A stretch of 53,171 bases of DNA. Origin: Magnetococcales bacterium (lineage in GTDB: Bacteria > Pseudomonadota > Magnetococcia > Magnetococcales > JADFYX01). Below the pieces are notes generated by a model. It did no database searches. It saw nothing but the letters and a program-made list of their open reading frames with translations, and was not told where the DNA came from. The stretch covers positions 1 through 53,171 of the forward strand of contig PEAM01000029.1 in NCBI GenBank assembly GCA_002753565.1, given 5' to 3'. The position numbers and the translations under genes were made by a program. Each line of letters starts with the position of its first letter. Position 1 is the stretch's first letter. Positions 49,496 to 53,171 of the stretch are shown piece after piece.

Positions 49496-49622
49496 CACCT
49501 GTTTGATCATAGCAGGGTGATCGATCAGAGGCCGGGAGAGATGCAGACAGAATATTACTTATCCCATCTTCCGGTTGTTTAGTGTAGTACTAAGTGGTGC
49601 ATTGATTAGCGGACATATGCTA

Positions 49623-49840
49623 TATAGAGATTTCAAATCAAATTGGGATAATGGTTAAAGGCAAAGTCAACACCTTGGGAGGCCTTGCAGGCCCCCAAAT
49701 CCCCACGCTTTTAAGATTAAAAAAAAGCAAAGTCAAGGGCTTGGGACCTTGGGCGCTACCCAAACCCGCTGGGAAGGCGTTCATACCTTCCCAGCCCCAT
49801 CCGCAATCGTTTTGTACAAATTTGGTTTGAAATCTCTATA
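49623..49840 (+). mobile_element. MITE-like element with terminal inverted repeats, repeat copy B
   Basis: 218 bases bounded by inverted termini GAGATTTCAAAYCAAATT (one mismatch), each flanked by TATA, which suggests a TA target duplication as made by IS630/Tc1-type transposases. It has no coding capacity. It carries the family hairpin GCTGGGAAGG/CCTTCCCAGC at 49768-49795 and a ~73-base internal insert missing from copy A. The right end supplies the stop codon of the convergent antitoxin-like gene. Confidence 0.75.
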
Positions 49841-50087
49841 GTTGGCAAGAATCCGCTTCAACTGAAATTTCCCTTTGCCTTATGGACCCGAGGCATGGTT
49901 CGTGGTTCATCTCCTCGTCACTGACATACTCTCCTCTATCCCCTTGGGCAGATGATTCGGCCAAACCTTGGGCTATAGTCTCTCTTTCCACGACCATTTG
50001 CAACACGGTCACTACCAAATCATTTCCATCAGGTAGGGCTTTTATTTTCCTTCCCAGTTCATCCGGAAGGCTAAAGGTAACGTCCAT
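49836..50087 (-). CDS. Small antitoxin-like protein, C-terminus altered by repeat insertion
   Basis: 83 residues from the ATG at 50087 (GGAG 8 bases upstream; the frame extends to 50114). The start MDVTFSLPDELGRKIKALPD and the DEEMNH segment resemble short antitoxin/RHH-type proteins of toxin-antitoxin loci, but no toxin gene lies next to it. The last codons read SCQL then TAG, the stop lying at the edge of the repeat. In the reconstructed empty site the frame would read SCQLAYVR before a stop, so only about four residues were lost. Confidence 0.55.
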   Translation of the reverse strand: MDVTFSLPDELGRKIKALPDGNDLVVTVLQMVVERETIAQGLAESSAQGDRGEYVSDEEMNHEPCLGSIRQREISVEADSCQL

Positions 50088-50763: not shown

Positions 50764-51789
50764 CTATTTCGATTTCTTCTTTACCCGCTTTTGCACATCA
50801 ACCTCAATTCTGCGTAGATCCTCTATTGCTTCCATCTCGGCAATCTGTCGTTCCGACCCTCGGCGTTGATCATCAAATTGACCATAAGTTTGATGGGCTA
50901 TCTTTTCCATCCTGTCATGGGATATCTTCCCTTTGTGGTTCAGAACTGGACGTTCATTGAATTCAATAAACCGATCTGCCTGAACAATCCAGTCAGCCAT
51001 GTACACCTTTTCTTTGCGGCTGGCCCTCAGTTCGGCAAAATCCAGAAACATGGTAACGATAAGATTGAGTTGTGTGATTTCATCGGATGTCAGATAATTT
51101 TTAGCGGTGGTCACATCTCCTTTACGAACCCGTCCCCCCTTCCATGAAGTTAACCCCATGTTAGGCTTGTCTGCATTCAACCGAGAAACCACCAACTCGG
51201 CTGCGGTCTGGCCAGTAACTGAAAAGAGCATTTTGTTCTGGATGGTCTTGAAGAAAGTTCGTGCAGTTTCGTCCCGCTTGTCATAATCCATACTGGTCTC
51301 GGTGAAAAGATCCTTCACCTTTTGGTAGAATCGCTTTTCAGAGGCCCGGATATCCCTGATCCGCTCCAGCAACTCATCAAAATAATCCCATCCACCCGGC
51401 TCCTTTAGGCGTTCATCATCCATGACGAACCCTTTAACCAGATACTCCCGAAGGTGAGTCGTAGCCCATTGCCTGAACTGGGTACCACGGGTAGAGCGCA
51501 CCCGGTAGCCTATAGCCAAGATCATATCCAGGTTAAAGAGCTTGATAGAACGTGAAACCTCCCGATTTCCCTCCTGGCGAACTGTCAAATAACTTTTGAC
51601 AGTTGCCTCTTCCTGCAACTCACCTTCCTCCAAAATATTACCGATATGGTGGCTAATATTCTGCTTGGTGGCCTTGAAAAGATCTGCCATTTCCGCCTGA
51701 GAAAGCCAAACAGTTCCATCCAACGACCGAAGCTGAACCTCTGCGATACCGTCAGGGGTAGTGTAAAGAATGATCTCGCCATCAGCCAT
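50764..51789 (-). CDS. RhuM-family protein
   Basis: 341 residues matching the RhuM family (PF13310): VWLSQAEMADLFKATKQNIS, HHIGNILEEGEL, the IKLFNLDMILAIGYRVRS motif, TQFRQWATTHLREYLVKGF, and DFAELRASRKEKVYMADWI. The N-terminus resembles a Fic/DOC-associated or phage-antirepressor-like DNA-binding region. RhuM was first noted in a Salmonella pathogenicity island and is frequent in defence and mobile islands; its activity is unsettled. AAGGAG precedes the ATG. It lies 69 bases downstream of the RT-TOPRIM gene on the same strand. Confidence 0.9.
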   Translation of the reverse strand: MADGEIILYTTPDGIAEVQLRSLDGTVWLSQAEMADLFKATKQNISHHIGNILEEGELQEEATVKSYLTVRQEGNREVSRSIKLFNLDMILAIGYRVRSTRGTQFRQWATTHLREYLVKGFVMDDERLKEPGGWDYFDELLERIRDIRASEKRFYQKVKDLFTETSMDYDKRDETARTFFKTIQNKMLFSVTGQTAAELVVSRLNADKPNMGLTSWKGGRVRKGDVTTAKNYLTSDEITQLNLIVTMFLDFAELRASRKEKVYMADWIVQADRFIEFNERPVLNHKGKISHDRMEKIAHQTYGQFDDQRRGSERQIAEMEAIEDLRRIEVDVQKRVKKKSK

Positions 51790-51858: not shown

Positions 51859-53050
51859 CTAACTGGTCGAAACTTTCTTTGCATAATCAGCTATTGCCTC
51901 TGAAAGCCGACCCAAAACACCGATGAAGCCGTCAAAGTTGATTTTTTGCTGATTCGCTCTGACCACCTTTTTTGAGAAAATGCTCTTTCCATAATTTTTT
52001 GTTGTATCAAAAGAATCATCACCAGGGTGAAACGTCTTGCCGTCAAGAATTTCTGCCCTGACTTCATCACCAAACAAATCTTCAATTGTTACATGACCAG
52101 AGCTCCCTTTTATCTTTGGCAAAGCAACAAGGTATAGATTATCAATCAGATGGTAGAATGCCTCACTATCATTGACACGCCTTCCAATTTTGTCTTTCAC
52201 AACGGAAAACAGTTTACGCGACCCTTCGTCATGATCAACCAAGATGATGACTGGGAATTTTTTTCCATTGCTTTTGAATGGCCTCAGTTTGCTTTTATAT
52301 TCGATGATTAGCTGCTTTAGATCTCCTGTCCCACCAGAGAATTGCAGAAGGTCCATATTTGTTTTTGAGTGGTTGAAAAAATCAACTGCGAAATCAAATC
52401 TCCCATCAGACTCACCACCAAGCATTGGAAAGGAAGCTGACAGAGATTTAATGGCACACTTGAGGTAAACGCTATCTGTTTTCCCTTCACACAATATCAT
52501 GGGTTTACTCAAAGCATGAAAGTTGGTGAAAAGTATGAAATTCTCATACAGTTTATGTATAGAAGTCGGCTCCTTCCATTTTTCTTTTCTGTCTCTTTGA
52601 TCATGATGCTTTTTAACGTTATAGATATGACTGAGAATCCCCCTAAGCTGGTTCACAGTTCCTGGCTGTCTCTCCCCATCACGCATTTCTTTTCCAAGGT
52701 AAAACTGCCCCGTTCTAAATAGCGCATTACACATCGACCGGGCCTGACGATAGTAAGGTGCTTTGATATTGACTTTCCTGTTCACTACCAACCCAGTAGC
52801 AGTTTGCCGGTGCAAATCGTATTGCATGGATGTCTTTTTTGGATTGAGTTCAAATCCTGCACGATTGATCTCTTTCACCACTTTGTTACTTGGAAACCAA
52901 TCTCCAGATTTATCCTGGCTGGCAATTAGGGAAGGGAAGTCTTTTTTCCGTGTGGAAAAGGTTATGTCGTCAGCATACCTTGAATATGAGCACTTGGCCT
53001 TTTTTGCTAATTTTACCAATCGAACGTCTATCAGGTGTCCAATCAGATTT
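51859..53050 (-). CDS. Retron-type reverse transcriptase fused to a TOPRIM domain, 5' part cut off by an IS66-like insertion
   Basis: The open frame starts inside the RT palm: NLIGHLIDVRLVKLAKK, then catalytic SRYADDITFS (YADD at 52966-52977), the FELNPKKTSMQ segment, and the retron-type TATGLVVNRKVNI motif. From ~52505 a C-terminal TOPRIM domain follows: MILCEGKTDSVYLK (catalytic Glu), ILVDHDEG (Asp-x-Asp), then VTIEDLFGDE. RT-TOPRIM fusions define a retron subclass (type I-C as I recall it). The fingers domain and any msr-msd RNA gene would lie beyond the insertion at 53051. Remaining start codons (e.g. TTG 53019) would yield a protein lacking part of the palm, so reverse transcription is probably lost. 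Confidence 0.85.
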
Positions 53051-53171
53051 GTAAGCGGTGTTTTAACCCCGTCAGGCTGAACCCTTGTTCCTTGGCGTCA
53101 GGTCAGGGTTGAGGTTCCAGGGCAGCAGGGCATCAATGTCGGTCGCCGTCTGAGCAAGCGGTATCTGCTCG
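53051..53171 (-). mobile_element. End of an IS66-like insertion sequence (runs off the right edge)
   Basis: The terminus starts GTAAGCGGTGTTTTAACC at 53051, the form expected of IS66-family inverted repeats (GTAAGCG). The end of a transposase gene follows inside the element. The other end and the 8-bp target duplication are outside the window. Confidence 0.75.
53072..53171 (-). CDS. IS66-family transposase (TnpC), C-terminal fragment
   Basis: The minus-strand frame from the window edge reads EQIPLAQTATDIDALLPWNL, then NPDLTPRNKGSA and TGA at 53072-53074. The IDALLPWN motif is the typical C-terminus of IS66 TnpC. Only 32 residues are visible. Confidence 0.75.
   Translation of the reverse strand, partial: EQIPLAQTATDIDALLPWNLNPDLTPRNKGSA

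Follow-up and report, generated by a model that had tools for sequence, protein, structure and literature searches.

At the end of contig C3, a damaged retron of a known type adjoins an element from a known IS family. The contig, which is the entire window analyzed here (53171 bases), belongs to a draft genome of 92 contigs, and position 53171 is the true contig end rather than an arbitrary cut. Judged from its sequence, the damaged gene is a remnant of an RT-Toprim retron gene of the PADLOC I-C kind and not a working member: the C-terminal ~396 residues of the fusion are found on the minus strand, and an IS66-family terminus stands where the remainder of the RT domain should be (Table 1). Very probably, a retron of the Eco2/Ec67 type was cut by a simple insertion of the IS66-family element, the other half of the gene would lie beyond the IS, and the locus would be dead as a retron.

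Table 1. Features at the end of the contig that bear on the retron remnant and its junction with the IS66-family element.
Feature	Positions	Strand	Remark
RhuM-family gene (PF13310; PADLOC candidate defence family PDC-S05)	50764..51789	-	directly downstream of the remnant, same strand
RT-Toprim fusion gene remnant, Eco2/Ec67-like	51859..53050	-	corresponds to Eco2 residue 175 to the C-terminus
Toprim (RNase-type effector) domain, complete	51859..52503	-	catalytic residues all present
Remaining part of the RT domain: palm, incomplete (YADD, TATGLVVN), and thumb	52504..53050	-	fingers and LPQG part missing
Predicted 8-bp target duplication, TCAGATTT (AAATCTGA on the gene strand)	53043..53050	.	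adjoins the IS end
IS66-family element, TnpC-side end, terminus GTAAGCG	53051..53171	-	121 bases up to the contig end
Last 32 codons of the IS66 TnpC	53075..53170	-	stop codon at 53072-53074

The RT-Toprim remnant and its relatives

The remnant matched the PADLOC profile RT-Toprim_I-C over positions 177-556 of 568 (E = 3.5e-135) and retron Eco2/Ec67 (PDB 9lm3/9i2f) from residue 175 onward (E = 1.5e-64). The preliminary description of this DNA had claimed a retron with an RT core joined to a TOPRIM domain and had proposed profile searches for both; these matches bear the claim out and assign the gene to the RT-Toprim_I-C, or Eco2/Ec67, kind. Pfam returned a weak RVT_1 match to the remnant and nothing else. 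The structure predicted for the fragment had a mean pLDDT of 89.5, and with it the Eco2 entries were the sole confident matches in Foldseek (E = 2.1e-31 to 9lm3). The motifs listed in the preliminary description are all present in the minus-strand frame, with YADD (52977-52966) and TATGLVVN, which holds the conserved TG.VN stretch, in the palm part of the RT, and CEGKTD (E188/D192) and VDHD (D272/D274), in fragment numbering, in the Toprim domain. Profile positions 1-176 are absent, so that the RT domain is incomplete and ~175 N-terminal residues are missing.

From residue 175 onward, the remnant has the same domain order and fold as Eco2, and YADD and the E/D/DxD/E residues of Toprim are conserved between the two. 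Essential and catalytic residues have been reported for the Eco2 Toprim, K562 being among the catalytic ones (PMC12405507). The remnant contains E188, D192, D272, D274, E323 and K355, keeps the residues matching Eco2 E374, D378, D460, D462 and E515, and has T at the position of Eco2 S513. Across 29 sequences, K355 (fragment numbering) does not vary; Eco2 K562 was not placeable by the numbering used. The remnant differs from Eco2 in that its contig is without the N-terminal ~175 residues and the ncRNA, in that it is ~34% identical, and in having DHD instead of the common DND.

The nearest relative is the RT-Toprim of a genome from the same order (G021, locus L005), which is 58% identical to the window copy, groups with it at 100/99 support in the tree and has the ncRNA upstream. 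In contrast to the window copy, it is not cut by an IS, though its reading goes out of frame by one base after a run of seven A near the start codon (L005:1490-1534); this break may be a sequencing error, a pseudogene or slippage. Other named RT-Toprim relatives are spread over many bacterial groups and occur also on contigs classed as viral. A first scan of genome contigs with the fragment alone as query returned nothing. Among 88 further relatives, the match lies in one open frame in 85 and is split over more than one frame in L029, L060 and L072. It should be noted that the fraction 85/88 gives no loss rate, because full-length matches were the basis for the selection, which would leave out IS-split copies.

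The RT of 11 relatives is preceded, at a distance of up to ~80 bases, by an RNA of 125-145 bases with perfect arms of 11-14 bases (e.g., GGCTTACAGGCA/TGCCTGTAAGCC); intact relatives thus carry an upstream ncRNA with paired end arms, as retrons do. A covariance model built from these 11 matched at the same place upstream of the RT in 28 of 29 further relatives, and the single relative without a match begins too near a contig end. A search with Rfam gave no retron RNA, either for the window or for ten relatives. By analogy with the relatives, the msr-msd RNA of the window copy would lie beyond the IS.

The joint with the IS66 element and the contig end

The residues that match the RT-Toprim family begin at 53049 and run downwards in coordinate. 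The window protein reads NLIGHLIDVRL at this point; the family similarity reaches NLIGHLIDVR and ends at 53050/53051, and the residues ahead of that stretch are unrelated to the RT-Toprim family. This agrees with the preliminary description, in which the frame ceased to make sense at 53051, at an IS66-type terminus with a TnpC C-terminus. Bases 53051-53171 begin with GTAAGCGGTG, and the TnpC C-terminus encoded on their minus strand ends with LPWNLNPDLTPRNKGSA before the stop codon. The terminal GTAAGCG and the adjoining TnpC C-terminus, which shares up to 66% identity over 29 residues with IS66 relatives, identify the family from the 121 bases of the element that are on the contig. Several IS66 relatives in genomes of the same order share the GTAAGCG terminus. 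The IS end had no match among plasmids.

Two complete IS66 copies in G021 (L256 and L257) run from GTAAGCG to CGCTTAC and are flanked by perfect 8-bp duplications, TTTTGATC and AAAGTACG. They resemble the window element in their terminus and in the TnpC end LPW.LNPD.TP close to it; the comparison extends over the 121 bases of the window element, with 66% identity across 29 TnpC residues. Because both complete copies carry a duplication, one of 8 bp is expected at the retron joint as well.

The way in which the contig ends bears on whether the joint is genuine. The 76 contig ends read include 11 pairs with an overlap of exactly 121 bases and one further pair with 122; 5 ends, that of the retron contig among them, reach exactly 121 bases into an IS66 terminus and no further. 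Judging from the way such assemblers operate, the 121-base overlaps would be the mark of an assembler using k-mers of 121 bases, and the contig end therefore appears to be a normal stop at a repeated IS. The other four ends are the ends of C8 and C17 and the starts of C21 and C22; their IS66 element differs from that at the retron site, and this genome (G000) therefore holds several IS66 insertions.

Repeats are where chimeras arise and the IS is presumably repeated, so the IS end might have been joined to a wrong flank during assembly or binning. At the joint, however, the flank meets precisely the terminal base of the IS, and the element then continues for a single k-mer length to the contig end, as expected for a correct stop at a repeat. 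This argues strongly against a chimeric joint, one of the outcomes that would have refuted the preliminary description, and we regard a chimera as scarcely credible. A mixed population, with the insertion in some of the sampled cells and perhaps an intact retron in the others, and with an assembly break at the resulting fork, would suit a draft assembly with many breaks and the undamaged state of the remaining reading frame. Yet the contig runs 121 bases into the IS before it breaks, like the four other IS66 ends, and does not break at the fork between RT and IS, which makes such a mixture quite improbable.

The missing half of the retron

Under the preferred reading of a simple insertion, the locus would originally have had an msr-msd RNA ahead of a single RT-Toprim gene. 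In Eco2, the Toprim RNase is kept in check by the complex of msDNA and RT, with phage DenB as the likely trigger (PMC12405507). In the intact state, the RT-msDNA complex of the window copy would likewise have shut off the Toprim RNase, which phage attack would have released. The IS66-family element would then have entered the coding region of the RT palm, between the LPQG part and YADD, and parted the ncRNA, the promoter and the first ~175 codons from the remainder. The remnant, being without the fingers, the first part of the palm and the ncRNA, would produce no msDNA and would be dead as a retron.

The other half was sought in the same genome, and these searches covered contigs of at least 3 kb; at least 19 contigs under 3 kb lie outside the searched set. 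In the contigs of at least 3 kb, the RT-Toprim family search found no piece beyond the retron contig, and neither did searches with the IS end DNA and the IS66 C-terminal family. The duplication partner (the AAATCTGA-GTAAGC joint) and the left IS end, with 2 mismatches allowed, were also not found in these contigs. The ncRNA covariance model gave no match in the window or in the contigs of at least 3 kb, in a search run without a positive control among whole genomes. Searches of contigs of this size neither confirm nor refute the missing half, the second IS end or the duplication, and they decide nothing: as the contigs under 3 kb are outside the searched set, absence of the missing half is no evidence of its loss.

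These results bear mainly on a deletion or rearrangement linked to the IS, in which IS66 stands at the joint and the genome no longer has the 5' half of the RT or the msr-msd RNA, so that neither follows on the far side of the element. An assembly estimated to be 99% complete, in which the contigs of at least 3 kb lack an N-terminal RT part, the ncRNA and the AAATCTGA-GTAAGC joint, would fit a deletion. Half a gene between repeats, however, is expected to be of the size of the at least 19 contigs under 3 kb, and the interior of the IS is likewise absent from the searched contigs, which shows that the region is simply outside the searched set. We therefore consider a deletion unlikely and retain simple insertion as the explanation of the locus.

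The Toprim domain and its surroundings

The insertion breaks the lock formed by RT and msDNA, yet leaves the frame of the effector whole: the remnant frame is open from 51859 to the joint and continues for ~50 bases into the IS before a stop. As no stop has arisen in the Toprim frame, the element probably inserted recently, or else the remnant goes untranslated. Growth is inhibited by isolated Eco2 Toprim starting at residue 267, 300 or 337 but not by the full protein (PMC12405507), and this toxicity, too, makes a silent remnant or a recent insertion probable. Most likely, the retron would be dead, the remnant of its effector silent and the hit recent, as the frame is still clean. The first in-frame start codon, TTG at 53019, has no evident ribosome site, while the in-frame ATG at 52686 (about Eco2 residue 295) has GGAAAAG ahead of it. 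Translation of the remnant, for example from this ATG, into a free Toprim RNase without the RT-msDNA lock that is tolerated or used by the cell seems very unlikely; if true, the locus would offer a parallel from nature to the toxic truncations of Eco2.

Insertion of IS elements into accessory genes is ordinary, and among the papers searched we found no report of RT-Toprim retrons split by an IS. The locus adds one more lineage to those with an Eco2-type retron. The preliminary description had considered an inactivated copy informative about cost or decay, which is not supported here: the genome is a draft containing several IS66 copies, the remnant is otherwise intact, and a single insertion of this kind demonstrates neither cost nor gradual decay. 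Given the toxicity of Eco2 Toprim in isolation (PMC12405507), remnants of this kind could be used to ask whether IS insertions that kill a retron must hit sites that also silence the effector, a question for which one case is insufficient.

The RhuM-family gene, next to the remnant, lies in a low-GC stretch at the contig end, which is perhaps a small defence island. RhuM was rejected as a standing partner of the retron, with only one distant match near an RT-Toprim relative. Further inward, 49621-49842 is a copy of a dispersed repeat of ~220 bases that looks like a MITE: its ends are inverted repeats of 29 bases (TATAGAGATTTCAAATC...), it is flanked by TA and it folds strongly. About 40 copies with 83-93% identity occur in the same genome, and diverged copies are present in all four other genomes of the genus.
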